From the NCBI GenBank assembly GCA_028015205.1, contig CM051516.1:32812230-32876229 (forward strand): 64,000 nucleotides of DNA. Direction: 5' to 3'. A model generated the notes under the pieces. It ran no database searches, was not told where the DNA came from, and saw nothing but the letters and a program-made list of their open reading frames with translations. Positions 25,735 to 61,000 of this stretch are shown here, piece after piece. Every line of letters starts with the position of its first letter. The first letter of the stretch is position 1. The DNA comes from Mytilisepta virgata (taxonomy: Eukaryota > Mollusca > Bivalvia > Mytilida > Mytilidae). Both the position numbers and the translations under genes were made by a program.

Positions 25735-28129
25735 AAGTCTCCCAAACAAAGTGGGAGACTTACAGATTTTGACATTTTGCGACTTTTATTAAACATTTTT
25801 TTTCTTTCTCTCCGATTTTGTTCGTTCGAGTTCTCAATAACCGTCAGAGATATGGATCTGAGATTTTCCATGATGAAAGATCAATGTTTCTAGATGTGTC
25901 TAATACTATTCATTTGTCACTGGGAACTGAGCAGTTCAAAGAGGCTAGGGGTTTACTATAGGACCCTATGGGGATTTTTTTTTCATCGAAAAACTCTACG
26001 AGAGTGACCAATAACCGTCTCATACCATATATTTTATTATACACCGTGACAACACTTATTAAATGACATATACCTCTTTCATCTAAGGGGAGGGGGTCAT
26101 CCCCACCCCCAAAAATTTCATATGCAATTAAAATCTATGGCTTTAAATCATATATTTTATTATTCTCCGTAACAAGACGAATTAAATGACATGTACTTCA
26201 TTCTTTCAGTAGGGTGATCCTCACCCCAATAAATCAGAATGTCCAATTATCTCATAAACCGTTAGAATCTTCACCCCTAAACCATATATTTTCTTATTCC
26301 ACATAGTAAGACGCACTAAGTGACACATACCTCGCTTCCCCAAGGGTGTTTCACCACTCCCGTCAATAATGTCCAATTATCTCATAAACCGTTAAAATCC
26401 CCACCCTAAACCATATATTTTCTTATACCCCATGGTAAGACGCACCAAATAACACATACCTCGTTTCACCAGGGAACTATCACCACTCCCTTCATATCAA
26501 TAATGTTCAATTATCTCATAAACCATTAAAATCCCTACCCCTAAACCATATATTTTCTTATTCCCCATGGTAAGACGCACAAACTGGCACATACCTCGCT
26601 TTCCCAGGGGCTTATCACCACTCCCATCAAATCAATTATGTTCAGTTATCTCATAAACCGTTAAAATCCCCAAACCTAAACCATATATATTCTTATTCCC
26701 CATGGTAAGACGCACATAATGACACATGCCTTGTATCCCCAGGAGCTTATAACCACTCCCATCAAATCAATGTTAAAATCCCCACACCTAAACTATACAT
26801 TTTCTTATTCCCCATGGTAAGACGCACCAAGTGACACATACCTCGCTTCCCAGGGGGTTTTCACCACTCCCATCAAAACAATAATGTTCAATTATTTCAT
26901 AAATTTTTGACGGTCAAGCGCGACGTCATAATGAAGATACGACATTATAGCGGCACTGAGAGCGATGCGTATAAACAATACCGTGATTCCCCTTTATTCT
27001 CAATGGGCGTCATTCTCGCCCCCTTAAACCAATTGTCTTGAATTATATAAAATTAAAAATCTGTAAGAAACCTGATATCTAAACCATATCTAAACCGTAT
27101 ATTTTCTTATTCATCGTCACAAAACGCATGAACTGATATATACCTCATTTACCAAAAGATTCATCCCCACCCCCTTTAATCAATTGTCTTTAATTATCTT
27201 GTAAAGCATTGAAATCCCTGCCTCTAAATCATATAATTTCTTTTTCCTCATTATAAGACAAACAGATTAATAAAAAGCTAACACCCCCACCAAAAAGGGG
27301 AAAGGGGGGGGGGGGTTATCCTCGCCCCTCGAATCAATAATTTTTAATTATTTCAAAATCCGAAAAAAAAATTATCCCTGTAACACGTTTTAATACGCAA
27401 TGTTCAAATCTCAAGAATCATTTAACTTCATACCCCGTAACCGCATATATTTCTAATTGCCTATAAAAAGACGCAATAAATGATTTTACACATTGTCCGG
27501 GGAATGGGGATATTCCCTCGTGAAAAATCAACAAAAGACATTGAGGTCCTTTGACCTTAATTATAAACATTTTTATTCTTTGTGAAAATCTCATATATCC
27601 TCAGAGTTCATGTCCGACCCTTTTAATTAAACAATGCATGTATCATCAGTGTTTCTGAATACCTTCGAAACTGCTGGCCGGGATAATCATTATGCCCAAT
27701 TGGTATTGCTCGAGGGGATAATTTACTATTCCCGGAAGATGATAACTTGTTACAAATGTATATATCATAAAAAATATTTTCCAATAAATAATATAAACTG
27801 TATTGGTCGAACTTTTCATTTTTTGTCTGATTTTTATGCAACTCAAGATACAATAAAATAATTTCTCGTAAATGGTTCAGAAATATTGGGATATATCTGT
27901 CAGTGCAGCATGATGACATTGTATGACTAAAACTCGAGTCACAAAAAATACCCATATCACGATTTTCAAGTAACCTCTCCATTAAGTATGCATAAACTTT
28001 ATAGGAATAATTTCCCTAATTCAGTCTCTGAAAAACAAATAATTTATTGAATACAATGTAAGGTATTCGAGATATTAGTTACTTCGTTTGGGAGACTTCG
28101 TAACAGTTCACTGTTACAGTTATTACTCG
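25735..28129. mobile_element. 2.4-kb insertion with terminal inverted repeats and TTATT target duplication
   Basis: It splits the LINE reverse transcriptase. The 5-bp TTATT occurs on both sides (25,730-25,734 and 28,130-28,134), and removing the element plus one copy restores the LINE frame as QGIICIPK. The left end AAGTCTCCCAAACAAAG is matched, reversed, near the right end by CTTCGTTTGGGAGACTTCG (28,083-28,100), and about 30 bases of hairpin sequence follow to the border. There is no transposase. The short frames at 27,623-27,982 are not credible genes. The interior contains the tandem array at 26,013-27,260. Confidence 0.7.
26013..27260. repeat. About 130-bp minisatellite array, roughly ten units
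   Basis: The phrase AAACCATATATTTTCTTATT recurs at about 26,020, 26,150, 26,278, 26,406, 26,546, 26,676, 26,791, 27,097 and 27,225. It is accompanied by CATGGTAAGACGCAC, CACATACCTCGCTT and CCACTCCCATCAA. Units are 115-140 bp and diverged. There is no frame. The array lies wholly inside the 25,735-28,129 insertion. Confidence 0.85.
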
Positions 28130-28134
28130 TTATT

Positions 28135-29735
28135 CCTTGTTTTTGAGTATAACTGATATTTCACCAGTTTGATAGCCATAATTTATGGATCTTATACCAA
28201 TATCAATCCAAAAAGAATTTAAAAAATTCTGCAGTATATCCATCTGACCCCGGACTTTTATTATTTTTTAATCTTTTAAGTGCGGCTGTTAATTCAGAAT
28301 AGCTAATTTCACCTTCCAAGGATAATTTTTGGTTATTATCCAATTTTGGTATATCTTCATAAAGAATTTGCCCCTCTAGATTAACATATTTCAGATTTTC
28401 ATCTTGAGAATAAAGACTTTGATAAAAAATTTTGGCTTTATTTAAAATATCTTTCTGTTTCACAATACAAATGCTATTATCTGAAATTAATTTTGGAATA
28501 GTTTTGTTTATATAATTTCTATTTTCTATATTACAAAAATAATTTGTAGGTTTTTCCCCTTCTTCTATCCACCGAGTTCTAGATCTAATGAAATGTCTCC
28601 TCAGTTTTTCTTGCCTCAACAGTCTCGGTCTTTTTTTTTCTTGAACTGTATCGAAATTATCCCCTGTTTGAATCAGTTGTTCTAAATCTCTGATTTCTTT
28701 AACAACATTGTTTTCCAATTGAACTTTCTCCCTCTTTTTAAAAGATGAGTAAGATACATGTATTGCCCTCCCCGAATTTCCATCAATAGAGTCTCTAGAA
28801 ATAACTGATCATTTATCATAAATTGGATATCTAAATTACTAACATTTTCTATATTTTCATGACAATGTACAAGAGCTGAAACTGTTTTTTAACCTTTATT
28901 ATTTCTGTTTTAACAGCATTAACAAAGTCTTCACCATAAAGAAGTGAATTATTAAATTTCCAAAGCCCCTTACATCTCACAAAATCGTTTATTTGTAAAT
29001 CTAATATAACAGTTGATGATCCGATCTATAGCTATTGTCAATAAACACATCACTAATACCATGAAGAAAGTTATCAGAAACAAGGAAGAAGTCAAGACGA
29101 GCTTGTTTGAGCGGTTTTTTTTCGCCAGGTGTAACGTCTATTTTCTGGATACATTTCTCTGTATGGATAGACAAGATTCTGGACTTCCTTGAACCCCAAA
29201 ATCTTGTCTCTTGCTCCAGGATTATTGATATGTAGATAATTAAATATATCCATAGAGAAGTCTTGAACTAAGTTTAAATCAACTGCAATAATAGTTGACT
29301 TATTTTCGAACAAGTCAATGACGTTAGACATCTTATTATAAAATCCAGGTGTATCCGTATTGAGACCATAAACATTTATTAAGGTAATACGTTTACCTTC
29401 TAATGAAATATCTAACCCAAGAAGGTTACCATCCTCATTATTTTTTAATCTATGAATATTTAAATTCAAAATTCTGATTGAAGAGGATCGCAACCCTCCT
29501 TTGATTAGAAGCAAAGAATTAAATATACATTCTCCATCACACTGATTTCTTATTTGGGTTTCATCCCTTCCCAGAAAAGGTGTGTCTTGTAAAAGATAAA
29601 TATTAAAATTTTTGGACTTCAGGTAATTAAGTACATCTCTCCGTTTCTCTTTTGTAAAAAGACCATGACAATTATAAGTATTTTCAGTGAGTTTATCTTC
29701 ATGTTTGCAGATTATTAAACATGTGCCTTATACAG
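28135..29735 (-). pseudogene. L1/Tx1-like LINE, 5' segment (endonuclease and start of reverse transcriptase)
   Basis: Translation of 29,092-29,700 (minus) gives an apurinic-type endonuclease domain. It begins near NTYNCHGLFTKEKRRDVLNY, continues FNIYLLQDTPFLGRDE, then LINVYGLNTDTPGF and AVDLNLVQDFSMD (family: GDFN). The segment 28,203-28,718 encodes the linker and first polymerase blocks: RWIEEGEKPTNYFCNIENRN, then LKNNKSPGSDGYTAEFFKFF. The order endonuclease-reverse transcriptase and the GEKPT / KSPGxDG wording match the L1/Tx1 group. Frameshifts lie between 28,718 and 29,092. The 5' end abuts the terminal inverted repeat of the next element at 29,749. Confidence 0.75.
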
Positions 29736-29748
29736 AAATGGACACTTA

Positions 29749-31358
29749 TTAGGGACCAACCATTTTATTACCGAGGGGGGCCTGGGATTTTTTCGAAAAA
29801 AATATTTTATGTCCAGATTAGTCTGAAAAAAATATTTTCATTCTCACTATGTCCAAAAAAATTTTTTTAAGTCTGAATATTCCCGAAAAAATTTTTTTGT
29901 TCCAAATCAAATAATTTCAAAAAAATAATGTATATATTAAAATAACACTGACAGTGGAATCTTCAAAAAGTGTATGCTGTGCAGATTCAGAAGACTGGAA
30001 AGGACCATCACAACTTTATAAGAGGTAAATAAAATTATTTCACGTTTTTTGGTTGCTACTATGTACAGCACTGTATTTCTGTGTTTTAAATTTTAGTTTA
30101 TAGTTCCATAATGCATCACATCATGACAAAATTTATAGCTATTCTAAATTTTATGTCAAAGAAAAAAATAACAAGAACATGTACATCAACATTCAACATA
30201 CTTTAAAACCAAAATATGAACATAATACTGCTGGTATATGAACACAACCATGTGAAGTATAAAGTACTGTGACTAGAAAATAAAAAAATGGATGGATTTG
30301 TTACTCCTGAGTAGAAAACGTCAATTTAATTACAGTTTAGAACATTTTTTTCCAATCAACACAAGAAATCGGGGGTATATATGTGACTTTCATATCCTGA
30401 GTAATGTCTTTAGAATTGTCATCCTTTGTAGTAAAGTACATATCTACAGTTTGAACCCTGCGAGTTTTCTTTTCACCAAGCTGACACTTTTCTGCTGCTC
30501 TTATTTTTCTTTTCTCAACTTTCTTCTTGTTTTTCTGTTTTTTGTGGATAAGGCCTTTCTCTGTAGCCGACGTGGTCTTCTCAAATGGAAAGAACATAGG
30601 AAGAACAATAAAACCTATATACAAGGCTAGAGTCGCTGATGACGGTACGGCCTCGATCAAATTAAAATATATAATTGATTCAAATAGGTACCTGAAACAC
30701 TTTGGCCGGTCGAATATATTGGAACGGATTGGGAGTGATCTCATTTCAGTAATAATGAACAGTACTGAAGAATGTCATTCCACTAACTTTAATAAATTCA
30801 TTTCTATTGAATAATAATCTTTTTGAACATTTTACTTTGTTTCCAATAGCAATAAAATTAAAAATTGCACTTGAAAGAATGCATATAAATCACTTTTATG
30901 GAGCTGATAATTTATCTCCTATATATAATCTTTCTATCATATGCTATATAGAAGAAAACTTTTTTTTCAGTTACTCACTCCTGGCAATAACTTACGGAAA
31001 TGGTGGACATTTCAATTGTAGCATTGTGATACAGGGGTCGTGGTACTTGTATGATGGACTAAGAGAATATCACAGTGTTGGAAGTGGCCTAAAAAAGCAA
31101 CCTATACCTCGTCCACGACCTTGGTTACAGACAAAGCCATGCACTTTTTTGTAGAAATGAAATATCTGCTTGAACAATGTATTTGAACTTTTTTTGGAAG
31201 AAAAAAAATTTGCTCATGTATATAATAAAAAAAAAAATTCTGTTTTGCTTGATGTGTGAAAAAAAAATTTGATTTTCGACTGACCTGAAAAAAAATTCTA
31301 TCAGGCATAAAAATCCCAGGCCCCCCCCCTCGGTAAAAAAAATGGTTGGTGCCTTAGT
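29749..31358. mobile_element. 1.6-kb element with about 45-bp terminal inverted repeats
   Basis: The left end (29,749-29,795) contains GGGACCAACCATTTT, ACCGAGGGGGG and CCTGGGATTTTT. The right end (31,309-31,358) is its reverse complement with small length changes in the homopolymers. Immediately inside both ends are A/T tracts rich in TTTTTTC and GAAAAAAA. The interior carries plus-strand coding-like sequence (see 30,580-31,154). A TA target duplication is possible but not certain. It is best read as a DNA transposon or large MITE. Confidence 0.65.
30580..31154 (+). CDS. Unidentified protein fragment inside the inverted-repeat element
   Basis: Two plus-strand open stretches may be exons of one gene. 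The first (about 30,580-30,814) gives YKARVADDGTASIKLKY and RYLKHFGRSNILERIG. The second follows a good acceptor (TTTTTTTTCAG at 30,960-30,970) and gives LLAITYGNGGHFNCSIV, then QGSWYLYDGLREYHSVGSG. The GGHF...WYLYDG pattern recalls the His-containing strand pair of papain-like deubiquitinases or Ulp1-type proteases, often carried by metazoan transposons; this is a resemblance only. The catalytic Cys part is not seen. I cannot name the product. It could be a captured host gene fragment or a transposon-encoded accessory protein, and it is probably incomplete. Confidence 0.3.
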
Positions 31359-33994
31359 AATATTTGTGAATGTTGAAAATAGCAAACATGCATAATGAGA
31401 ATAACAGGACCTAGTTCAATTCTATTGCGAATTTGATTGTAATAAGTATGAATATTAAAGCACAATTTACCTGTTAACTAGAGTTTCCCTTTCAGATTTC
31501 TGTATTTCCCAATCCTTATAACACCTGTACCAACAAATAAAGTTTTGCAATTTATAATAAGTATATGAAATGTATATGCCAAAAATGCAAAAGAAAACAT
31601 AAAAGCAAATACTGTCGTCCAAAAAAGAGATTTCAAATTGTTTTGTATGATAAGATTGGCTATTACTGTTTAAAGAGAGATAACTCCAGTTCAGCAATTA
31701 ATGATATTGTTATAATTTAATATCTCTTTCTTGTACATACATGTTGTTTATAAAATAATTGGTACAATTTTCCTTTGCATACACTTTAAATGTATTTATC
31801 ATTTATATGACAATCTTAATATTGCATATATAGAACAAGTTTCTTTTTCAATTAGAAGGCAAAGAAAAACTATAATTTCTATATACTATAATAGTTTATA
31901 AAATCAATAACAACATCAAATCAAATCATATCTGTGTATAAGGTTGATTATCCTGCAGTACTCTGATTCTGTAAGGTTATTGTTATCGTTACAAGCCAAT
32001 CCAAATGTGTTGTTTATAAATAGGGCTTTTTAAAAGAATAATAAATATTAATCCAAATTACCATACATAGTAACCAGAAATAAATAAAAAGAATGATCCA
32101 CGTACTTTTTATTCTGTCTGGACTGAAATTTAAGGTTTTATAACTGTTTTGAACTCAGAAATGCTATTATTTATGAACCAGCTGTTACTTTTCTCTGGAA
32201 TGTACAGAATTTTAACTATTATATTCAACAACCTACATACATGACGTATGCATAATATACTAATTATATTTTAAAACAAATTCATACACACAAAAATTTA
32301 AAAACCGGTCCTGAGAGATCATCCCATTTGTCATATTTTTGGGTGACTGGGTGTTTTGGTAAATGTTGATCACTCAGGACAAGGTTCTCTGAAATATAGT
32401 CACATGAACGGTAAATTATAAAGCATAAATAATAAACAGATTCCATGCAAGTAGACATAAACAAAATAATATAACATAAATAACAGCAAAGGCAAAAAAA
32501 GTAAATAAACAGAAAAGCTTCAACTAAATATATTGTAAAGAAGCAAACTGAAATTAATTAAGCTAAGCATAAGCATAATTCAAACACTATACATTCGGCA
32601 AGATTAGTTTATTTCAATTAAATCATATAAATTTTAAATTGAGTATCCTTCATATTTAGGCATATGGATAAGTTCTTTCACCTCATATATAGCAAAAACA
32701 ATTCTAGCAACAGAAAGTAAGAGGAAAGCTGGGTCATATTTGATTTCAAAAGGTATAAATATATTTTGTTTGGGGTATTTTACAAAATGAAACAAAATCT
32801 TACACCCCTCCCCCAAAATTATTATTTTGTTTTTAAATTTTTACTTATTTAGATTTAGATGCGACCCACTTTGATCCCCCCTTTCTTCAATTTATACAAA
32901 CAAAGATGTACAGGCACATCTGTATTTGTATACATGTATATATTTGTCGCCTGTCATACTTACTAGTAATATAAACTACCTTTCTTTTAGAAAGAAATAT
33001 TGGGATCTACTGTTTTTACTACTTATTTTGATGCACATGTATTATCTGTACAGAGAATATTACCATTTTAAAATATAGATAAAAGATATACTTGTGAATA
33101 TAGATTCATGCAACATTTTCTTGTGTGTGTCGTTATGTCTTTCACAATTATTGTTTGCTTCAGGTTTAAGCCAGATATCACAAAAAGTGACAGTCTTGGT
33201 AATATTGATATATATTATGTTTTTATTTTATATTTGAAAAGTACAAAAAACGAATTCAGAAAAAGTCAGGTCGTAAAGCTTTTGTAGAACAGTATATACC
33301 CAATATGTCTATAAGGAGTACCTTTATTTTTTGACACTTTCAAAATTGTCAAAATTACTATCATTGTGACTTTTTTATGCAAGTAACTCACTTTCAGACC
33401 TTATGGAGTGTTTTTTTCATCATTATAAATCATTTTAGCCATATATTTTGTTGTGAAATGATACATGTATCGTCAGTGAATTAGTTCATAGGGTTGAAAT
33501 CTATTCAAATATGTTAAATATTAAAGATCTTATCGATTTATAAAATATCTGAAGGTTTCTACTCTATCGATATACTGCCAGAATTAATCATATATAGATT
33601 ATCCCAGTCCTTTAACTTACTATAAGTTGAAAAACTGAAATTTCAATTCTTTAATTGAATTGTGTATAAAAAATATACTGAATGAATGACAGATGTTTAT
33701 ACTTGTAGATAATCCGTACTACTTGAAGTTTTTTAATCACTCCAATATCAGTTACTTAATTAGCGGATCCAGAGCGTGCCTAGAGGGCGTAACCCCCCCC
33801 CCCCCCCTTTCCCCCTTTCCCTTTTTGATCGGCAAAATAATATTTATTTAATCGATATATATGATTTTTCACCATAAAATCGTCAAAGGAATTTACATTT
33901 TCCAATTATAAATTTTACGCCCTCTTTTCAAAAATCCTTGATCCACCCTTGGACTTGACTAGTAAAGACGAAACTGGTTTTGAATGTATGAAGT
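31359..33994. other. Intergenic AT-rich sequence
   Basis: No gene or structured repeat is supported. A C-run tract lies at about 33,791-33,820 (C and T homopolymers). Confidence 0.4.
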
Positions 33995-34015
33995 CATTTG
34001 TTCGGAGAACAAATG
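33995..34015. repeat. Hairpin CATTTGTTC/GAACAAATG
   Basis: A perfect 9-bp inverted repeat with a 3-base loop marks the left end of the repeat-rich block that follows (TGACCTATGACATC phrase at about 34,030). Confidence 0.6.
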
Positions 34016-34159
34016 TGAGGTCTTTCCCTTGACCTATGACATCATACAACTTGGACCCAACAGACTTGTAGAGTTCAAAGAACAAAGTTCAAGCAAGCAA
34101 CATCTTTTCTGTTAGTTTTTGTTCTAAAGTTTTAAAGATAAACACTATTTTTAATATAA

Positions 34160-35265
34160 AGGGGCCCTGTCAGGACAAATTTATATAAACTAGATATCAT
34201 GGAGATGGTACCCATCTCTGTGGGCCCCGCTATAAAAACCTGGGCACCACAGGGCACCCATACAAAACCGAATTATTTAACCTTAAGACCGCAGATCAAG
34301 ATTGAAGGTAAGGTAATCCAAGGGTGGAGCAAAATGAAACAAACTTGATCTGCACCTCGTCAAGGTAGACTTACATACCAACAAGAGTTAACACTTAAGT
34401 ATGTCTTGCCTGCTGGAACCTTCAAAAACAATAATTCTTTCCACTATATTTTCATAAATTTATAAGGATTTTCAGTTTCTGAGACCAAAAGGTGTTTATA
34501 AAACTTGAACATTGCTAATATATGCAATAAAAATTATCAAAGTCACTAAACCAGAAAATCAAGGTCAAGGTTAAAAGATAGGGATGCAACTGTGCTAAGC
34601 TATTACTAGGGCATATGCATACCAAGTTTCATCAACCTAAGACCTATAATTCTTGAGATATGGATGTGCTCATAAAACCTTAACACTGCTATTATATGCA
34701 TTGAAAATTGTCAAAGTCACTCAACCAGAAAATCAAGGGCATGGTCACAAGATGGGGATGCAACTGTGCTAAGCTACTACTGGGCATATGCATACCCAGT
34801 TTCATCAACCTAGGGCCTATAGTTCTTGAGATATGGAGGTGCTGATAAAACTTTAACACTGCTATTATATGCATTAAAAATGGTCAAAGTCACTCAACCA
34901 GAAAATCAAGATGGGGATGCAACTGTGCTAAGCTATTACTGGGGCATATGTATACCAAGTTTCATCAACCTAGGACTTGTAGTTCTTTAGATATGGAGGT
35001 GCTCATAAAACCTTAACACTGCTATTATATGTATTGAAAGTTGTCAAAGTCACTCAACCGGAAAATTAAGGTCAAAAGATGGGGATGCAACTGTGCTAAA
35101 CTACTACTGGGGCATATGCATACCAAGTTTCATCAACCTAGGACTTATAGTTCTTGAGATATGGCGGTGCTCATAAAACTTTAACACAAAAGTCAACGCC
35201 GCAGCCGTCGCCGGTAAAGTAACACCTATGTCCCGCTCTGCTTCGCAGGCGAGACAAAAATTGGT
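34160..35265. repeat. 160-180-bp tandem repeat, four units, in a dispersed element
   Basis: The word AACACTGCTATTATATGCAT and its variants recur at about 34,505, 34,684, 34,853 and 35,013, with TCAAAGTCACTCAACCAGAAA and CATACCAAGTTTCATCAACC in each unit. The block closes with CGCCGGTAAAGTAACACC and CGCAGGCGAGACAAAAA. There is no coding potential. Confidence 0.8.
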
Positions 35266-35395
35266 TCAATATCTGGAAGAATTTGTTTAAAAAAGTGCGG
35301 GAAACTGAAATTTTAGTAAATTTTTTCTAAGTCCAAGGGGCATAAATAAAATAACAATCCAAAGATACCAATATTAGATATAGTAAATTTATACT

Positions 35396-35442
35396 ATGCT
35401 GTATACGACGCATTTCAAGGAGTTACCTCTCATCAGCAGCAT
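35396..35442 (-). ncRNA. Type I hammerhead ribozyme, downstream copy on the minus strand
   Basis: Read on the minus strand: stem I 5' strand ATGCTG (35442-35437), core CTGATGA (35436-35430), stem II GAGG/CCTT with loop TAACT, then GAA, stem III ATGC/GTAT with loop GTC, the cleavage base A (35402) and stem I 3' strand CAGCAT (35401-35396). Stem I is six perfect pairs. Stem II has one G-U pair next to the core, and stem III has one G-U pair. All conserved core bases are present. Cleavage is predicted between 35402 and 35401, after the triplet ATA. Confidence 0.85.
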
Positions 35443-35773
35443 TAAAACCGAAACATTTGGAAGACCAAAAACCAAACTTATATTAAACAAGAAGTACTCA
35501 ACCAAAAATACCGAAATAGTAAGCCAAATTTCAGCTAAGGAGATCTACCATGTGCAATACAAAGAATGAACCCTTAGTATTTCTATTATTTTTGAATTTT
35601 GCTAAATACTGGTAATTTCTGTAACAAATCAATGAATAATCATGTCAGACAAGTCTGACGACTGGGTTGGCGAATACCCTCGGGGACCTAGGGTCCACCA
35701 GCAGAGGCATCATCCCAGGAGTTTCAAAATAACAATCCAAAGATACCAATATTAGATATAGTAAATTTATACT

Positions 35774-35820
35774 ATGCTGTATACGACGCATTTCAAGGAG
35801 TTACCTCTCATCAGCAGCAT
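35774..35820 (-). ncRNA. Type I hammerhead ribozyme, upstream copy on the minus strand
   Basis: Its sequence is identical to the ribozyme at 35,396-35,442. The core CTGATGA is at 35814-35808 and predicted cleavage lies between 35780 and 35779. The pair of cleavage sites defines a 378-nt excised RNA. Confidence 0.85.
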
Positions 35821-35911
35821 TAATTATCGTAGTGGAACGAAACGTAAACTTGATCTGTAACTCATCAAGGTAGACTCACACCAAAAATCAGCTTGATATC
35901 TGCAACCATTT

Positions 35912-36930
35912 AAACAAGAGGCTCCCAGGAGCCTGAATCGCTCACCTGGTCCTTAGGGCCAAAAGGGTCTCTTCTACATGGAGTAATCTGACAATTTTAA
36001 TCTAACAGAGGAGTTTCTGGTAAGGTACTCTTGTTGCTAAGGCGTGACCTTGAGATATGACATTTGACGTTGGTCTTAAATTGAAGCTCTTTTCTTACTG
36101 AACACAAAAAGTATACATGTTTACTATATAATCTGTAACGGTTTAAAAGTAATTGGTAAATACCGCAGTTTACAATATGTTTTTGGCCGCCATTTTGAAA
36201 ACACTCAACCAAATCATGTAGTGTTTGGGCTCAAATTGTAGGTCTTTTAATTCTCTATCAAATGATAATTTATTCATTATCTTTTATGGTTAAAAAGTTA
36301 TAAACAAAAAAGGGAAAGACCTTAATAAGAAGAACTTAACATTTCGTCTCGTATGTATAATGTACTTTTCCAAATCCTTGACGGTGACGTGACTGTGGTA
36401 TTGGTTGTACATATAAACAGCTTGTAGGTTTTGTATGTTTTTACTCCTGGTCAAAAGATTTTAACAAGCGAAACCATACGATTACTGAAAAACTTCTGTT
36501 ACAGGGTTATAGATTTCTCAAGCTTGCTTATTGCTATTAAAAATGTTATAACTATCTTTAAGCATACTACCCAGGCTCTAGAAAAGTTTTTATGGCGAAT
36601 ACTGCCGGTTTTCATTGACTTCCATTAGGAGATAACATTAAACACTTTGTGGGAGTTTTATTTCTATTTCGTTTAGTAGATACTGTATCCGACCAGCAAC
36701 TATGGGGGCCATAATCTAGGGTTAAAGATTTCAATGCTTTCAAATGCTTTCAAAAAGTTTAATAATAACTGTCAACATGTTTTAGCTAAATACCTTATAA
36801 TTATCACGAATACTGCCGACTTCCATTGACTTCTATTAGGAGATAGAATTAATCACTTTGTGGGAGTTTCATTTCTATTTCATTTAATAGAGCTACAGTA
36901 TCCGACCAGCAGCTATGGGAGCCTTAAGAA
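35912..36930. mobile_element. GCTCACCTG-bounded dispersed element, copy C, with an internal 210-bp duplication
   Basis: The left end AGGCTCCCAGGAGCC...GAATCGCTCACCTGG (35,917-35,953) matches the end of copies A and B. Inside, about 120 bp beginning CGAATACTGCCG and containing CACTTTGTGGGAGTTT and GTATCCGACCAGCA occurs at 36,597-36,715 and again at 36,807-36,925. No frame is credible. Confidence 0.6.
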
Positions 36931-36959
36931 AACGAAAAATTCCTGACCCTGCTATGTAA

Positions 36960-38560
36960 ATGGACTACCGTTCAACCAATGTTTTCAGTTCTTTCAAGCG
37001 GTCATTATGTTGGTAATAATACATTATGTTTCGTTCACCGGAGTATCAGGATAGAAAGGGGTGGTTTGGGTTCCAATAAACAGGATTAACTTTTCCACTG
37101 AAGAGTGTCTTTATCAAGTCAGAATATCCTTCATTTCTGTGGTGTTAATGTTTGTTTTGTGCTCTTTAATGTTAATATTTTGTCAAGGCGTTGATTGATA
37201 GGTACGCTATTGTTATCTTTTTTGTTGTTTAGACAATGTCCAAACCAACGAAGTCGATTATAGTCATCGCCCATATGTAGCACAAAAATAAAACTGTTTA
37301 AATTATCTCAGACGGGGAAGTATTTTCTACGGAAACTTAAACATAAGTGAATTAAGAGGTTCGAGTTTAAATTTCAAGTGAAGATTTTCGATTATCGTGG
37401 GAATTTGAGATTTTTAAAAAATTATCAAAATCAAACATATGTATAAAAGAAGAACTTTGTCACTTTTGCCTTCGCGAAAGCGAGTGTATATTGACTCATT
37501 TGCTTTTCCGTCACCCTTTCATTCCGCATTTCAATTCTAGGAGATATCTGGGGTTACGATGTCGATGCATTGTACGGGTTGAAAAGATAACAAAGAGGAT
37601 GTGCCCTCATATGTCAGAGCACTGTTACTTAAGACAGAATTTGCATTTCAGAATTTAAAAAAAATATATTTCCTTGTCCGATTAGAATTTAACATAGGCA
37701 AATGGTAGGAATAGGGAAGATGAGAATCTTTAAATCAATTACAAGGTCATTACGTCAAAGGTCATGGTTATTTACTAATTATATAACTTTTGTAATGAAA
37801 AAATGAAATAATGCGGATGGAAGTGCTACGCCCAGTGATTTTGAGGTCGTGTGAAACCCATCAAATCGGACCTGGAGGAGCTTTATTAATTAGTGCTTTT
37901 TATTTATCATACACATTACTCTTAACCATCATAAGACTCATAAACATTAATTCCACAATACAAATATCAGCACAATTCTATTTTTTTATTCAGTAAAGTG
38001 CTATGAATTGTATCCTCTGATATAACATTGCTGCACATAAAAGATTTCATTACCTTTATTCCAGTTTATTACCACTTATTCTAGCCAATCAAACCCTAAC
38101 GCTGCATTATTGTGAGCAGAATATTTTTTCTTTGTAAGATACATACTGATGTTAAATTGTTTCATGAAAATATTTTTCAAAGAATTCTCTTTCCAGCTTT
38201 TTCTTCGTGTTGCAATTCAAAACTCCCTTCAGTTGTTCATTTGTTCGATTGCTAAAATTATAAAAATGTGGGTAGTACTGACAATTTTTTCCTACATTGT
38301 ACTGTTTTGAACTAATTAAAATTAGAATAATCCGCACAACTAAAGCATGCATATAATTTTCCATATTACATTTGTGTAGCTCGTGTTTCACCTAAAAATA
38401 CTATATTGGACCGAGGTCTTTTAAACCCGATTTAACATGCATATCTTCAACTGTTGAACATGAAAACTTTCATGGTACTGGAATGATTTATTTCTGTTCT
38501 GACTGAATGAGAAACATTAGTGCCTTCTGTCCCTTAGCGAAGTTATTCACATGTGATAAC
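36960..38560. repeat. Tandem segmental duplication, unit 1
   Basis: This unit matches 38,782-40,060 in order and orientation. Paired landmarks are ACCAATGTTTTCAGTTCT with ACCAATGTTTGCAGTTCT, the AATGTCCAAACCA word, the CAGACGG...GGAAGTATTT word, GATTATCGTGGGAA with GATCGTCGTGGGAA, and AAAGCATGCAT followed by TGTTTCACCTAAAA and CAACTGTTGAAC. The copies are clearly diverged. No gene was recognised in either copy. Confidence 0.65.
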
Positions 38561-38781
38561 TGTAATTGTCGTATTTCCACACGCCTATCTTGGCCTTCGA
38601 AGATAAACTCCAGTGCAGGATGAACCAACTATATAATCAGCAATGGCTTATGAACCGAGTCATCACAGACATCACGATTTTAACTTGACGTTATTAATAT
38701 TTGACCTGAAGTCCTTAGGACTTCCAAACGTACAAAAGCTGCAGTGTATTCACTGAAAACAGTGATATCACTTATTCTCAC

Positions 38782-40060
38782 CAATGTTTGCAGTTCTAGC
38801 AAACAGTCATCTTGTTGGTAATCATACTGTCATGACTGTATTAGTTTTTATTGTATGTTTTCTACACCAGTGTCAGGATAGATAATAAGGGGAGGGGGGG
38901 GGGGGGGTGTTGGTGACGTTGATTGATTGGTATATCATTGTTAACCTTCCCTGCTATCAATCTGTTTAGGCAATGTCCAAACCATCTGTTTATTGCAAAG
39001 AAGTTGATGGTCATTTTCCCATATGAAGAAACAAAATAAAACTTTTTTTACTTTCTCGCAGACGGTGGAAGTATTTGTTTTAGGAAAACTAAAATATAAG
39101 TAATTTAAAAGGTTCAGGTTTAAACTTCCAGTGAACAGTAAGGAATCTCGATCGTCGTGGGATGATGGATGAATTATTGTTTAACGTCCAGTGGCAACCA
39201 GGTGCATATCAAGACGAGAACATGTTGATATGATAATGAATATGATCCCTGCTTTGTACTAGACCGACACGCTAAGTCGGATTTTTAATGTGCTAGCTCA
39301 CGAGGTAACTGTCCGCAGGAAGACATATAACCTCACTCGGACACATTATACTGACTCCGAGCCGACCAGTCTTTGCTCTTACTCCTAGATGCCGCGTGCT
39401 TGGCGGAGAAGCAGCAAATACCAATTTTAATGTCTTTGGTTTGACCCGGCCGGGGATCGAACCCGCGACCTTCCGCACTCGGGGCGAGCACGCTACCACG
39501 AGACCATCGAGGCGGTCGATCGTCGTGGGAATAACTGATTTAAAAAATATAGAAATCTAGTATACAAGATTTTTTTAATTGCCTTCCCTTCACCCTTTTA
39601 TTCTGCATTTCGTTTCCAGAAGATATGTTTAGGTTCCGTGCTCGATTTACATGCAATGCGCAGTTTGAAGGGATAACAAAAAGAGGAAGTACCCATGTCA
39701 CCTTTAATAATATATCTTTGGTTTTGCATCAGAATTGGAATGAAAGTTTTACAGATGGAAGAAATGGGAAAGGGAAAATATTTCTTTATTTTGAAGTCAG
39801 TTGGTCGAAAGTCAAGATCACTTTTAACTTAAGATAGAGATTGCATTTCAGGAAGAAAATGAACTCGAGTCTACCATGTCCGATTACAATGGAACATCTC
39901 AAATCAATTAGAATAAGAACTAAAGCATGCATCAAATTTTCATATCAGCTCATGTTTCACCTAAAACACCATATTAGGCTCAGATACATATATTTAACTG
40001 TTGAACCAGAAAAATTATATCTTACTGGTATGATACATGTCTGATATAAGGTCAGTAGCT
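38782..40060. repeat. Tandem segmental duplication, unit 2, carrying a SINE insertion
   Basis: This is the second copy of the 36,960-38,560 unit, about 1.8 kb downstream. A SINE (39,163-39,515) is present here and absent from the equivalent site of unit 1 (about 37,395), so it inserted after the duplication. Short open frames at 39,625-40,044 have no counterpart in unit 1 and are not called. A G run lies at about 38,890-38,907. Confidence 0.65.
39163..39515 (-). mobile_element. tRNA-derived SINE with perfect 15-bp target-site duplication
   Basis: Read on the minus strand, the 5' end has RNA polymerase III A- and B-box sequences: TGGTAGCGTGC and GGTTCGATCCC. The tRNA-like head is GACCGCCTCGATGGTCTCG. 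A long unrelated body of about 280 bp follows. The flanks TCGATCGTCGTGGGA (39,148-39,162 and 39,516-39,530) are identical, which marks target-primed insertion by a LINE machinery. A second, truncated family member is at 40,732-41,005. Confidence 0.85.
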
Positions 40061-40118
40061 AATACATAATTATTTTTTTTTTGAATGAAACTTATGCGAT
40101 TGAAGTACTACGTTGTGC

Positions 40119-40255
40119 TTATTAATTCATCATTATATCTTTAACCGGTTTTCCAATATCTTTATCTCGAGCACTGCTGATGAGTTGTTAGTCAACGAAA
40201 TGGCCATACAGTGCATCAAATTTATTTCGGTATTTTGTGATACGTTTTACTACTA
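40119..40255 (+). repeat. Hammerhead-bearing repeat, copy 1
   Basis: About 135 bp beginning GCTTATTAATTCATCATTAT and ending TATTTTGTGATAC recurs at 49,023-49,155 in the same orientation, with scattered differences. The middle is an apparently intact hammerhead ribozyme (40,171-40,214). With only one ribozyme per locus, this may be a solo repeat of a retrozyme or of a Penelope-like element. Confidence 0.7.
40171..40214 (+). ncRNA. Type I hammerhead ribozyme with minimal stem III
   Basis: Stem I GCACTG (40,171-40,176) pairs perfectly with CAGTGC (40,209-40,214). The core CTGATGA is at 40,177-40,183. Stem II GTTG/CAAC has loop TTAGT, and GAA follows at 40,197-40,199. Stem III is the palindrome ATGGCCAT (40,200-40,207), and the cleavage base is A40208. 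Stem III has no room for a normal loop. It could form only two pairs with a GGCC loop or act as a dimer, as known for satellite and retroelement type I hammerheads. All core bases are present. Confidence 0.8.
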
Positions 40256-40731
40256 TTATAAAGGCGTGTGAAAACCTTCAAATCTGACAGCCTTAGGGTT
40301 GAGATCTAGAGCGCCATTGAAACCCAAAGGCGGCAGTGTTGCGAGCGATGGCGAATGGCCAAAATCACCAACGTCACAATATTTGACCTAACATTATTAA
40401 GATTTTATCTAAAGTTGTCAGAACTTCAAAACGTGGAAAATCAATAGTTTTTTCACAAAAACCACTCGTTAAGAATACGATAAAGAGACAATCAGATTTT
40501 CTGCAGATAGATATTATCAAATATCAACCGCTAAAAAAAGAAGACTTCATTATTGTGATTCAAGCTGATAATTATGATATAATTCTGCAAAAAAAAAATC
40601 GATAATGCATACGTGTCTCGTTTAACCCTAAGGGCTAAAGGATTGTTATTATATTGTTTCCCTTGGGTAAATTTGTAAAATGAGTCAGCTGACGTGTTTT
40701 TCAGCTCAACGAAGTACAAACTGTATTAAAT

Positions 40732-41005
40732 GCCTCCTCGATCGGTGGTCTGGTGGTAGCGTGCTCTTCTACAGTACGGAAGATTGCGGATTCAATCCAC
40801 GGCAAGGTCAAAACAAAGCCTCTAAAAATTTGTATCTGCTGCCTCTCCACCAAGCACGCGGAATATAGTAGTTAGAGCAAAGACATTGGCTCGCAATCAG
40901 AATAATGTGTCTGGATGGGGTGACATTCCGACTCCGTGTGTCTGTCTAGTACAAAGCAGGGTTTATATTCATATCACAATAATCCACTCATCTATCCACC
41001 CACAA
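40732..41005 (+). mobile_element. tRNA-derived SINE, second family member
   Basis: It is the same family as 39,163-39,515 but on the plus strand. The head contains TGGTGGTAGCGTGC and a degraded B box (GGATTCAATCC). The body shares GCACGCGG, AGAGCAAAGAC and GTCTAGTACAAAGCAGGG words in the same order. It is more diverged and apparently truncated, and no target duplication was found. Confidence 0.7.
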
Positions 41006-42295
41006 CCTGTATCAGCTGGTTGGTCCTAAAATCAAAATGCAGTATTTTCTTTATCATCTTTTCAGGAAGACAAAAATGACTTGCAGAATAAAAATATATG
41101 TCAGTTTTTTTATTGTAATATATCTGCTGATTTCCTGATGGTATACGGAAATTTTTAATGAGCTTCTTGATTTCTAATTTTTTTACATAAACTTTATCAT
41201 TTAGTTCCCACAATACTCATACTGTATATAAGCTGTTTATGACTTGTACGATACAAGCAGACATACAGAGAATTTTAAGGAAACGTAAGTATTTTCGTTG
41301 TGGCGGTTCTTGTTGTTGTTATTCATTTATTTTTGGGTTTTAATATTCATTCATCCTTTCAACACTAAAGTGGTAGGGGTAAACTAGTTTTATAAGTACC
41401 AAACCTCAGCATTTTGCATTCGGACTATTCGATACAATATACAATATGATCACCTACAAGGTGTCCTCAGAGCTAGAACAAGTAAAGTGAAGACATGACA
41501 CTAAGTATCGATAACTGGGTAAAAAATCGCTCATTAATGCTCTATCGTGCATTAACAGATTATCATTTTACTTCATGTTTTGTGAAGTGACAGTCTTTAG
41601 AGAAAACAGTCTTGCTCTGGGTTTCTAAGAGTCAACATCTTTTTGTTTTTTCATGCTTGTGATCAAGGTCATATTGGTCGAAACGTTGGGCAATTTTGAC
41701 TTTTAATTTCAGTCGTTAATTTTTGTTTTTTTTTTTTATGATTTTGTATTTAGTTTGTTCGACTTTTATATTTTGTACATTAAAGTCGTTTCATGCCCCC
41801 TTTAACAGCTCACCATTTCCATTTATTTTTCTCTCGTATTAAAAACAAAGAGATGAACTATTATCGAACGAAACAGAAATTTAGTGTTAAATTCATTGAA
41901 GTATTAAATTCTTTATATTATTAAAAAAGTGATTTTTAAAATCTGTTTTGATACTATCATTAAATTTGATGCTTCTGAAATAAACCACCACAGGATTCAC
42001 AGGGGTTTAAAGCCAATTTAGACATGTCATTTTCTCAACTTTGATTTTTTGGTGTTGTTTCTACTAATTTAAACACATTGTTTTCTGTTAGGAGCATTTA
42101 AGATTTGCCACATGGTATTGGTTTTCCCACATATTGAAGATCGTGTATTGGCCACTGAATGGCAATTTTTATCCGCTCAGTTTGGAAATGATATGTTGTC
42201 TTCTGGACATTTTTATTCAATATGCATTTTTTCTTAAAGATATAATTACATAAAGCTCAGATAGCTTATAATTTTTTTTCTTATTTCAGGTAAAT
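41006..42295. other. Upstream region of the four-exon Ig gene
   Basis: No coding feature is supported. A TTATTTCAG acceptor-like sequence lies just before the start codon (42,282-42,290), so an untranslated first exon may lie within this stretch. Confidence 0.4.
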
Positions 42296-45200
42296 ATGGC
42301 ACTGCAAATCGTTTGTAATTTTTTGTACATTTTTACTGAAATGCTTCTACTATCATCACTTTTTCGTAAGTATGACCAAGAGAGTAATCACACTAACAAT
42401 TTCTCCGCAGTGATTTTATTGAAAAATTTAAATACTGAAAATGTTTAACCATACAAGTCGTGTATTTACCTTTAAACCTACGACTTGGTTTGATTTTCCA
42501 ATTAACTAATTACTTACCTTTTTTACAATTTTCAATTTAATATACCTCCACCTTATATTTTTTTAAATACTTTCTTTTATATTTTATATACTTGGTAAAG
42601 CATGTTTCAATTTCAACAAGAAGTTGCTTCTTTCAATAGATTTTGGGAGCACTGATTTGAAGTTAATAACCTTACGTAAGAACGAAGTAGCCTTACAGTG
42701 TACTTTCGGGTTGGATCACGTAACAGATGCAGAATTAATCAAATATTGCAACAATGGTTCACCTATAGAGCGGTACACTCTACATATACATGATATACAT
42801 GTATTTGGAAATGTTGCATCCAACAACAAGCACGAACATGGATTTCGATTTCCTATAAAGAATTTTACAAGTACTGATTTGGTGTACTATGAATGTTCCA
42901 ATTCTCATGATTTTCATTATTCTCCACATATTTACAACTTAAACTTGAGCCGTGAAAATTTTGAAGGTAAGTGTAATTTTCACATTTATTAAGATGCGTC
43001 AATGGCATTCGTTTAAATGATAATGATCTAAAAACCTTAATATTTCTTTTTTCAGTTTCACAGTATATGCGACGTTCACTGCATTGAATTCAAGAGTGAA
43101 TAAAACCTAGGTTTTATTTTCGAGATAGCTCATGTTGCTCGAATTCATTTTGTGTTATCTTTAACTTGTAGAAAGAAAGAAAAAATCCAATTATTAGAAA
43201 TTACGTTCATGAATGTGAGTATCTTTGGATATGTCAGGCAAAATCAAGGAAATCGCCATAACAGTTAGGAATTGTTACCATGTGACTCAAAACATTAAAC
43301 CCATCTATGTACAAATTGCAGCAAACATTGTCACGAGCTTTAAACAAATTAGGTCAAGCCAAAAATGTAATTACAAAGTATTATAATAATTATAAGCATC
43401 TCTTCAAGTAATAAATTGTCAAAACGTATCGATCATTAAACATGTCAGAGATATTCACTAAATTAAATAGGTGTAAATACGATGTAGTAACGTGTGTATT
43501 ACACTATTTTGCAGTTTTTAGATAAGTTTTCGATTATTATACCCCCGCAAACATAGTTTGGGGGTATATAGGAATCGGCCTGTCCGTCTGTGTGTATGTC
43601 TGTCTGTCCAGAATTTTTTTGTACCCGCAGTTTCTCAAAAATGCCTTATCAGAGGTTAATGAAACTTTGCATACTGTTAGATCCTAGTACGTAGATGTGC
43701 GCATGAGAAGTATGTCCTGGTCCAATACTTTTTTGCCATAATTTTATACCCTTTTGGACTTAGAAATTCTGTCTATCCCCCAATTTTGTTTTTACCCCCA
43801 GTTTCTCAAACATGCCTAATCAGAGGTTACTGAAACTTTCCATACGGTTAGATCCTAGTACGTAGATGTGCGGATGCGAAGTATGTCCTGGTCCAATACT
43901 TTTATGAAAGCATGTCAGATAAGTGTTTTTTTCACAATTTTATAATAACTTCTATCTGCCAATTTTTTTATTGTACAAGAAATTACTTTCCCTATATAAT
44001 CTATATAAAATTTACCAACATTAAGTCTCAATAATATCTCAGAATTAAGAATGGTGACCTATGTTTTTTTGAAATTGAAATTTCAAAATATATCCATCCG
44101 ACATCCTGCCTGGAAAAAATTAGGAAAATATATCTGCAAAAAATATTATTATTGATCTAACTTAAGTTAAAACTTATTTATTTATAGTGGATTGGGAAGC
44201 AAGTTACACCAACTTATTCTAATCCCTCTCCACTTATTTGAATTTTACCCTACTCTTTTTCTACATCTACAAGGGAGTCTTTAATGCTAAGGATGTTGGT
44301 CATCCGTAACACGCGACAGTCATTTTTTCGTCCCCTTCACACGACGGATTAGCAACTTTTACCGAGACCATCCTCGTAACTGGTGTCGATAGGGCGTCGG
44401 AAATTTGACTCCTGAAATTTCCATTTCGAACGGGAATCGAACAGGGACCTTTAGATCCGTAGTCCGTGTCGCTAACCACTAGCGCCTTAATGCTATATTA
44501 TAATTTTGAGATGATAACCAAATAACATGTGATATCAAATGGTTTTTTTTCAGCATTTCCAAGTAATGAAACTTTGAGATCGACATTTCGTAGAACACAC
44601 AACACACTTAGTGGCAATATAATGTTTTTCAAAATTCATCCTGTACCAGAATGCTACTTCACTGTTGTAAGTAGGTTTTAAATAACTATCACAAAAACCC
44701 CAAGAACTAAACAAAATATTAATAGAAATATGTAGGACATGTATTCCCCGTTCCTATGAACAAAGAACTACCATCTGTTATAGGGGAAATCATTTTGCGA
44801 ATAAGTTTAAATATATTACATATATGATAGTGATATATTATATCATGCTTATATGAGTTATGATTCAAATATGATCTGCTAAATGACAGTATTTTAATGA
44901 TATAGTAGAATAGATATACTGTAAATTCATTTATTTTGGGTATCAATTTGATGGAATTTGAAAAAACATCCGAAGGCCCATCAAAATGTTTTTAAAACTC
45001 AGAGGGGCCGAGTGGTCTAGGTAGTTCGTCATGACTACTAATGATCACTAGCCTGTCAACACTGAGGTCTCACATGTGGCGGGGTGTGTTCGACACCGAT
45101 CTAAATTGACAAGGATTGCCAATTTTCTCACCGAAGGTCGGTGGTTCTCTCCGGGTACTCCGGCTTCCTCCATAATTAAAAACTGACCGCCGCGAAATAG

Positions 45201-58000: not shown

Positions 58001-61000
58001 ACATAAAAATTGCAATATCAACATTAAATGGGCTGAATATAACAGATTTTTTATGAAACAGGGTACAGTAATATCTTGCGTGAACATTTAACTTTTAATA
58101 CAGAGTTCTTAAAAAATGTTATGAAAGAAAGGTTACAGAACCAATGTATTCAAAAACTAGTTTCTTGGCATGTTTAATTCTTCTCGAAGAGATTATTTCT
58201 CAAAATTACAAAACAGAATGGAAGCTAGAAAATTATCTTTTAAACTTGAGTTCTGTAGATGGAGGCTATATCTGTAAGCTTCGAACATGCAACATGAAAA
58301 GGAAATGAACGTTTTTGTTCCCGTCTCGCATGCGAATCAAAAGCTAAACAGAGGGAACCAGTCGTTAAAAAGGACCAGAATTAGTCTCATGATTGGCCGT
58401 CCCAACGTCATGAGATGGACGCGTGCATCATCAACGGCCTCTGATTGGTCAGTCAACTGTAGTCTGTGGATGCGTACATGATAGCACCACCTAAACTAGG
58501 GGAAATCGTCACGGGCTGTACAACATACAATATTTGTTCAGTTTACCGTAGTAAAGATTTAAACTTATCGCTGGGTGTCTAATAAAACACAGAACTTCAT
58601 TTGGCGCTTTTAGTTTTGTTGCTTTAAAAAGCGTGTTTCACACTGTACATCGGCATTCTATTAATAGACAAATAGCGGTCATTGATTGGATACATATCGA
58701 GATACATTTTAAGAGCATTAATCTGGAATAAGAATAACTATAGATCTGATTGGCTAACCCAACGAGGGGAAGATTACTGATTTGTTAGAATCTTCCTAAT
58801 GTCTAAATACCTTCAAGTAACCACCACATGTCTCCTGTTCCTGTCCCAAGTCAGGTCGTGGTAATTGGTTAGTCTTTGTACTTTTTATTAAGAGCCTTAT
58901 TGTATTTACATGTATGATTGTTAATTTTTACAAATGTTACCACAATCATACATTTCACAACATAAACATTGTAATAGATATCGTCAAATGTCACCCCTTA
59001 CGTTTCGGAAGTTAACTTTAAAGATAAAGGCTTTTACATATATCTGTATGGCAATGTTAAAAAAAATCAAGTATAAAAATTTGAAATCTTTGAATATCCT
59101 TTAGTAAAAAAATACAGCCCGAAAAAAACATCAAAACACAGACTTTAAAAAAACTATGTAGTAATATATCTATTGAAATGTAGTAATAATACATATAATA
59201 ATGGAAAGTTTAATGTGATGACATTACCAACATTTAATGATACATAAAAAAAATTATACCCCTTGTTGGTTAGACTGGTAATTTTTTACTGTTGGGAATG
59301 TTTGGAAAAATTAAGGCGTATATCCTTAATGAATAGCTCTGTCCTTTATATAATACGACATCTTTTCTTTGGGCATTAAAACGTGCTCTTTGGACAGATT
59401 CTTGTTTTTTGGGGGAATTTTCAAAATTCCGCCATGTGCACTGTTCGTTATAAACATGATAAATACATTTTTGAAATATCAATATGCAGGTTATAAAATT
59501 GATTTTTTTTTTGTTAATATGTTAACACTTACGTCTGTTCTGTATATTGATGGTTGCGTTATGTGACTTATTTACGTTATCTATAATGATAAACAAAACA
59601 TCATATAAATAAATGCACACCATCAACAAAGTTTAAACATTTAGTCACTTTAAATATATATATATATAATTTTTTTTTAAAGTGACTAAATGTTTAAACT
59701 TTGTTGATGGTGGTAGCCTTCCGCTCTTTTCTGCTCTTTGGTCTCTTTGACCCATTCCCGTTTCCATTCTCTATTTCTCTATTCTATTATAAATGAACAT
59801 ATTGCCCCCTGATTCAGCATTCTCTGTTAGTATAATATTAAAATTGGCAATATGGAGTTTCCCAAATTGTATGCTTTTACAAGACTAAAGCGCCAATAGG
59901 TCTTCTTGGACTGGTTCGTACGAATTATTCATATGCTGGATGTTAACTATATACTGGTATTTATATATTTCTGAGAAATCTTAATATGTCGATCAATCCT
60001 AAATATATGTTACTTTCCTGTGTCTCAAAATTCTGAAATATGTTCACGTTGCATGATTCCTGGGACTATTATACTAGTATAATAGTCCCAGATGATTCAT
60101 ATCATTTTGTTGTGTACAAACAATAAAGAATGTGACGTTTGTTTATTTCAAGTACATCATCCGTGGCCGTGAGTTTTGGGGACACACACATATGATGAAC
60201 ATGTCGACGGCTATAGTTCGATTTCACCAACATATAAAATATTACTTTACATTCTGCAATGGACGATAATGCTTAGGACAAGTACTTTATTTTTGTACAT
60301 ATTTAAAAAATTCAAATGGCAAAGATAATGGGTGGCTAGTTTTCACTATGAACAATTCTTACTCTCATTATAAACAAATACAAAAATATAGATTCTCCTT
60401 CATGTACGAGAAGTTATGGAATTTATCCACCCGAGATAGTTAAATTTGATTTTCAACGCGCGAGCTTTAGCGAGCGTGTTAAAATCTAAATTTTAACTAT
60501 CGGGGATGGAGAACTTCTATAACTCACGAGTAAATTGAAGGGGAATCTGTTTCTCCTATGATTTTCAACAAAAAACCTCAAGAAAATGCCGTTCTACGCA
60601 TTTTGTTTACATAAACGCCATTCGGAACTTCGTTAGTTTATCTTTCAAATAAACGTAAAACAACGGCGGGAATATCCATGCAGAAATTTGATCGCCGGGA
60701 AGTGGTAAAAAAATATTATGTATTTTTATTTCATCGATTATACACGTAAATAATAAGAGAAAGTTAATTACACAACACTAGCATGACTAGTTTAAATACG
60801 AAAAACAATGGATGAGGGTTCATACTTTCAAAACAAACCACAAAGATTGTGTCATGGTGGTTTTTTTTAAATAACCCACAATAATCAAAGTTTCTCCTAT
60901 ATCCTGGACTCTAAAAGGTTTTTTATGTAACAGCTAAAAAACGGGGGGAGGGGGGAGGGGGTATTTGAAAACTGATATGCCAAATATTCATATAGAACAT

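Follow-up and report, generated by a model that had tools for sequence, protein, structure and literature searches.

What kind of element occupies positions 35348 to 35823 of this 64,000-nucleotide stretch of the Mytilisepta virgata genome (the window, meaning the whole of the DNA analysed), and how might copies of a unit that holds no reading frame of note find their way back into DNA? The locus was first singled out as a retrozyme, in which two identical 98-bp repeats, each carrying a hammerhead ribozyme on the minus strand, bound a 378-nt unit. We followed up this original prediction in the window and in the whole assembly, and present first the element itself, then its ribozyme, its relatives and the way in which they appear to have been inserted.

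A 378-nt tandem unit

The repeats are as originally described, being identical at 98 of 98 positions and spaced 378 bp apart. The term 'dimeric', which had been applied to copies of this type, was not borne out: the window copy is 1.26 units long, and other arrays reach about 6 units. The parts of the insertion are listed below; the RNA sense is the minus strand.

35348..35823, minus strand: whole insertion, a full unit of 378 nt and a partial one of 98 nt
35348..35445, minus strand: direct repeat copy 1, the 3′ copy in the RNA sense, 98/98 identical to copy 2
35726..35823, minus strand: direct repeat copy 2, the 5′ truncated unit in the RNA sense, 98/98 identical to copy 1
35396..35442, minus strand: type I hammerhead of copy 1, predicted cut 35402/35401 (descriptor, Rfam and covariance model)
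35774..35820, minus strand: type I hammerhead of copy 2, predicted cut 35780/35779 (descriptor and covariance model)
35402..35779, minus strand: predicted self-excised 378-nt monomer (repeat spacing and predicted cut sites)
35347..35348, plus strand: fixed junction, putative start of first-strand synthesis (RNA ...GGAUUGUUAUUUU; array starts)
35662..35718, minus strand: GC-rich hairpin, candidate reverse transcriptase binding site (z about −2; putative role)

The GC content of the 378-nt unit is 36%, and that of the window is near 32%. No notable reading frame is present in the unit, where no stretch between stop codons exceeds 60 codons when the sequence is read as a circle, in agreement with the earlier statement that the body of the element has no frame, and a search of 28000–43001 in six frames returned no Pfam domains at E ≤ 0.001. 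The terminal repeats of the arrays are partial units of variable length, and not LTRs. In the surrounding DNA, approximately 45 bp to the right of the retrozyme (35836–35880) are 84% like a stretch at 34333–34375, 1.5 kb upstream, and a 173-bp tandem repeat at 34490–35187 lies between the retrozyme and this flank-like sequence. Elsewhere in the window, an open frame on the minus strand at 60988–61425 contains an immunoglobulin V-set domain. A 287-aa ORF of the window gave no match among 485 candidates, and one scan of prokaryote contigs returned no relative.

A predicted hammerhead ribozyme

The 64-kb window was scanned for type I hammerheads with a descriptor that requires CTGANGA, stem II of at least 3 bp, GAA, stem III of 3–6 bp, H17 and stem I of at least 4 bp. 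It identified two sites, each located inside a repeat and on the minus strand, and found none in 300 Markov-1 simulated windows. In each copy, stem I (AUGCUG/CAGCAU) is followed by CUGAUGA; stem II (GAGG/CCUU) has a 5-nt loop and is followed by GAA; stem III (AUGC/GUAU) consists of 4 bp with a loop of 3 nt; and an A precedes the predicted cut. All three stems and both cut positions agree with the original prediction, to which we add that the stem II pair adjacent to the core (10.1–11.1) is a G·U wobble.

Two of the checks that had been proposed for this ribozyme went against it. With Rfam, there was no match at the gathering threshold, no match of any kind on 1.6 kb at E ≤ 1, and no hammerhead on 521 bases at E ≤ 10, a search in which a CyaR match at E 2 was dismissed as chance. 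When 61 bases were submitted, the sole family returned was RF00163 (Hammerhead_1), which aligned to 35396–35442 on the minus strand over model positions 1–45 of 45 with a score of 15.0 bits against a cut-off of 34 (E 0.2). The lack of a hit above the model threshold had been named in advance as a refutation and, taken literally, that is the outcome. Folding of the minus strand was also unfavourable, as the standard energy model prefers a different fold for the 47-nt core (−12.6 vs −7.1 kcal/mol for the hammerhead), with the qualification that nearest-neighbour models contain no terms for the hammerhead core or for loop contacts. On the window alone, some doubt would be left about the hammerhead.

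Other loci bear on the same question. Among the 72 loci scanned (L031–L102), an identical hammerhead is found in 102 units at 39 loci. L042 and L060 contain four further units with small differences, which affect loop II, one stem III pair that is still paired, or the stem I flanks; L042 is the array locus without the identical hammerhead, and the loop II variant is present in both of its units. Broken hammerheads occur in some units of L055, L064 and L070. Hammerhead patterns gave no matches in viral contigs (one exact pattern) or in prokaryote contigs (one degenerate pattern).

A second hammerhead family in the window

A covariance model built from three near-identical retrozyme hammerhead sequences detected a second hammerhead at 40168–40217 on the plus strand, at 32 bits and a rough E-value of 5e-6. 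In its sequence, GCACTG CTGATGA GTTG..CAAC GAA ATGGCCAT A CAGTGC, helix III is palindromic and very short, and resembles that of the minimal Penelope type. It represents a separate, dispersed family, found at 2,682 places genome-wide with ≤2 mismatches (reversed control, 0). When aligned to the model, this hammerhead occupies every one of the 14 modelled pairs, six of them changed on both sides; as the two inner pairs of its helix III would leave no loop, 12 pairs can form in a single molecule and five two-sided changes count, and all of these compensated changes come from the single second-hammerhead sequence. The alignment used was that of the covariance model, which leans towards the model structure, since MAFFT aligned the 3′ halves of the two sequences incorrectly. 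A decayed copy of the second family is present at L091 (296–345), with an 87% match to the window copy over 99 bp; it falls below the cut of the model alignment and is outside the pair counts.

Copy number and dispersal

The original prediction had called for a search of the genome for other copies, and these proved to be numerous. In the assembly (1.03 Gb, 109 contigs), a search for bases 1–35 of the unit, allowing ≤2 mismatches, returned 12,590 places, and none for the reversed control. A search with the complete 378-bp unit yielded 118 matches from the 40 scored of 958 candidates. Grouped and taken with their flanks, matches gave 40 arrays, including the window copy, with total lengths of 1.0–6.3 units; since 40 of 958 candidates were scored, the sample favours near-identical, full-length copies. 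An assembly artefact, which had been raised as a possible source of the repeat pair, is ruled out by these 40 arrays, whose flanks differ in all but two (L039 and L053).

Recent mobility had been read from the identity of the two repeats in the window. That recency stands, but it is other evidence that carries it: identity over 98 bp is weak evidence when taken alone, and recent mobility is strongly supported because, among the 40 scored of 958 candidates, units are identical over all 378 bases at at least six loci besides the window. Our results indicate a dispersed, genuine and recently active retrozyme family.

The 100 unit starts listed of the 12,590, all exact and on contigs C1–C5, fall into 59 clusters. 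Most of these (40) contain a single start; 9 clusters contain two starts, 5 contain three, and the other 5 contain between four and eight. Among these matches, neighbouring starts are mostly 378 bp apart, and a few clusters have spacings of 377, 379 or 358. Two of the longer clusters, C2:11783434–11786121 (eight starts) and C4:41922414–41923964 (five starts), are spaced at 379 rather than 378, a one-base difference in unit length that extends over the array as if each had been made from one template.

Starts, ends and targets of the arrays

The arrays start at nearly the same place in the unit. Thirty-seven of 39 resolved starts lie at unit bases 1–3; by BLAST, 36 of the 40 arrays start within these bases and 33 start at base 1. 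The start of L049, read by eye from its flank, is at base 1 with a short deletion, and L060, which starts beyond the stretch examined, was left out of the resolved set. L039 and L053, both on contig C20, start at base 42 and end at base 63 within TTAGGG-like flanks and differ in unit number; they probably derive from the duplication of a single locus in telomere-like repeats. Far ends are scattered over the unit in a manner compatible with a uniform distribution (38 arrays, KS p = 0.42), some of them being approximate since BLAST misses very short last pieces (L062 runs on for about 16 bases). No far end lies within 3 nt of the cut site, a result that has a chance probability of 0.49 and carries no weight.

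The junction is AT-rich, with A or T at flank base −2 in 33 of 36 arrays and at base −3 in 30 of 36. Long target-site duplications stand out in two of 36 arrays, one of 13 bp at the junction (L035) and one of 18 bp that is set back from it (L068), and four further arrays share 8 bp between their flanks. Shared flank words of ≥8 bp are commoner in arrays (6/36) than in mismatched flank pairs (3.4%), and short, displaced target-site duplications may be present. For the window copy the longest shared word is 5 bp, which is at chance level, and there is no visible duplication. Read in the RNA sense, the fixed end of the arrays is the 3′ end (...GGAUUGUUAUUUU), the outcome expected of target-primed reverse transcription that begins at a fixed site. 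Judged from the genomic copies, the variable end is the point at which the enzyme would have stopped.

The unit was also examined for RNA structure. As a predicted 378-nt circle it is not more structured than shuffled sequences (z = −0.74; linear form, −0.56), in contrast to published retrozyme circles, for which a high degree of self-pairing has been described. The most structured part, moderately so, is the GC-rich hairpin at 35662–35718, located just 3′ of the initiation point in the RNA, and by folding prediction we consider it a candidate binding site for the reverse transcriptase.

A probable single template for each array

Differences between full units average 1.46 within arrays and 4.68 between arrays, and 0 of 5000 permutations gave a value as low as that observed (75 full units in 38 arrays, of which 17 have two or more full units; L039 and L053 were dropped). 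Variants that are common to other arrays are fixed array-wide in 54 of 60 cases. Of the private variants, eight are present in every unit of their array that covers the position, and the 58 that are not fixed could be later mutations. Six units of L046 carry 121C/126A, and four full units of L066 carry 22T, 141G, 173G and 207A. Because units mostly carry the variants of their array, we favour a one-unit template that was lapped several times. A circle fits as one such template, and would explain the homogeneity within arrays simply. Shared variants are mixed in L039, L049, L053, L057 and L060, and this counts against a pure one-circle origin, which does not predict mixtures. The last units of L055 and L070, which are much more diverged than their neighbours, are a second point against it.

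The mixed arrays speak for a different template, namely a long multimeric transcript read from an array already in the genome and left uncut, in which case the hammerhead would be of consequence in some other step or in none. Daughters of a homogeneous donor array would likewise be homogeneous, and PMC11167929 reports that the hammerhead of a Penelope-like element is dispensable for insertion in vitro, where unprocessed RNA is the main substrate. The strength of the homogeneity within arrays argues against this account, as do the eight private variants that extend over all covering units and the 54 of 60 shared variants that are fixed, and we regard a multimeric template as possible but rather unlikely. 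A lapped circle of one unit is the template we prefer.

A candidate helper

Matches to the GIY-YIG domain, which is not unique to Penelope-like elements, number at least 95 in the genome (150 of 491 candidates scored). At L102, the one long frame examined is a 911-aa ORF with RVT_1 and GIY-YIG domains. The ORF lies between direct repeats of at least 703 bp in L102 (1–3875), which are 3,172 bp apart and 99.9% identical and each contain the motif CTGACGA...GAAAT. The same motif was seen by eye in 21 of the 30 loci L071–L100, some of which overlap; the L102-type motif is minimal-hammerhead-like, yet it failed stricter hammerhead descriptors. On these sequence features the host genome holds at least one Penelope-like element, and the one at L102 looks young.

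A comparison of the retrozyme unit with the 32 GIY-YIG loci L071–L102 showed no similarity at E ≤ 0.01, and because no sequence is shared the helper link is circumstantial. That a Penelope-like element is the most likely helper is plausible by analogy, given the shared layout and the behaviour in vitro of another Penelope-like enzyme, for which PMC11167929 describes internal initiation at a site non-homologous to the AT-rich target.

The shared layout could also mean that the repeats are the pseudo-LTR pair of a gutted Penelope-like element, which moves in trans by the same signals and retains the hammerhead as a relic. A 5′-truncated copy followed by a full copy is the Penelope-like arrangement (PMC8969392), and a hammerhead within the repeat, an AT-rich junction and the lack of a regular target duplication are features that would be expected of such a derivative. 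Its helix III would then have 4 bp, unlike the L102 motif, its hammerhead would have stayed unchanged in 102 units, and it would have no sequence in common with any of the 32 loci; we consider this origin distinctly improbable. Ordinary satellite spread at the DNA level, by unequal crossing-over or reinsertion of extrachromosomal circular DNA, is disfavoured and very improbable, for although it would suit the tandem units, the internal differences or duplicated changes in L057 and L064, and the differing unit numbers of L039 and L053, whose ends are identical and whose flanks are telomere-like, insertion of circular DNA should begin anywhere in the unit, whereas 37 of 39 resolved arrays start at bases 1–3, and crossing-over does not scatter copies of 1–2 units across contigs C1–C14.

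A model for re-entry into DNA

Taken together, these results make it highly probable that the locus belongs to the metazoan non-LTR retrozymes, as a protein-free retroelement that does not move autonomously and is copied by a helper through a circular intermediate from a fixed start and over multiple laps. The minus strand would be transcribed through two or more hammerheads which, to judge from their structure and conservation, would cut the transcript into 378-nt RNAs. Each monomer would then be closed into a circle, as shown for its relatives in PMC7229834. The reverse transcriptase of another element would start at a fixed internal site in the RNA, between ...UUAUUUU and GAAACUCC..., where the fixed start is read from the copies and the enzyme is a presumption, and would probably be primed by AT-rich target DNA. 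From the genomic copies, the enzyme appears to complete between one and about six laps of the template and to stop at no fixed place. Joining of the cDNA to the target would follow, in most cases leaving no clear target-site duplication.

We lean modestly towards a more specific version, in which the copies are fossils of rolling reverse transcription by what is probably a Penelope-like enzyme, acting on a defined structure of a self-made RNA circle, starting each time at the same site and running for one to six laps into AT-rich DNA. If this is true, the re-entry of retrozymes into DNA, which has so far only been proposed, becomes readable from sequence, and the GC-rich hairpin would be the recognition signal. 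The added value of the family is genomic evidence for fixed-start, multi-lap reverse transcription that is unusually clear on DNA re-entry; because the family is young, abundant and uniform, its start site could be placed almost exactly and a candidate recognition hairpin proposed. The Penelope-like element with nearly identical repeats in the same genome is a candidate source of the enzyme.

Comparison with known systems

Metazoan non-LTR retrozymes were defined by Cervera and de la Pena (2020; PMC7229834), with circles in coral, mussel and axolotl and a proposal that tandem cDNA is made on circles by a LINE or Penelope-like enzyme; PMC7761336 and PMC11722881 repeat the metazoan retrozyme model. 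In the available passages of these three papers, we found neither a fixed start nor private variants that extend over whole arrays. Members of the class are tandem repeats of 150–450 bp, in dimers to multimers, and the present family has a 378-bp unit in 40 arrays of 1.0–6.3 units. They carry a type I hammerhead, as does the unit described here (at 15 bits against the Rfam cut-off of 34, and broken in some units of L055, L064 and L070). A GC content below 45–50% and the lack of a coding frame also characterize them, for which the values here are 36% and 60 codons, and target-site duplications, when present, are longer than 4 bp. The class is further described by the lack of LTRs, primer-binding sites and polypurine tracts, by self-cleavage, and by linear and circular RNAs of unit length in tissue. 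Because unit size, type I hammerhead, GC content, lack of a frame, tandem units and high copy number all match the description in PMC7229834, we assign the family to the retrozymes, and the organisation that had been claimed for the locus is upheld.

Plant LTR retrozymes (PMC4918200) likewise have a ribozyme-bounded, non-coding unit and a circular RNA model. According to PMC7229834, they differ in that their hammerheads are of type III, their units measure about 700 bp, and LTRs are present. Penelope-like elements resemble the family in that a truncated copy precedes a full one, initiation is internal and at a fixed site, the target is AT-rich and the repeat contains a hammerhead, according to PMC11167929, PMC7761336 and PMC8969392. 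They differ from it in carrying an ORF with reverse transcriptase and usually GIY-YIG, whereas the retrozyme unit has no ORF, and in a minimal hammerhead without helix III, where that of the retrozyme has 4 bp.

The closest counterpart is in Mytilus galloprovincialis, for which PMC7229834 reports about 5000 type I hammerheads, usually in repeats of 350–390 bp, and circular RNAs. As described there, those repeats likewise have a type I hammerhead in a tandem, frameless unit of low GC content, are present in thousands of copies and share their genome with Penelope-like elements. The 12,590 unit starts found here stand beside about 5000 ribozymes in that species, the two being counted differently. 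The evidence supports a family of metazoan non-LTR retrozymes, a kind known from animals such as mussels.
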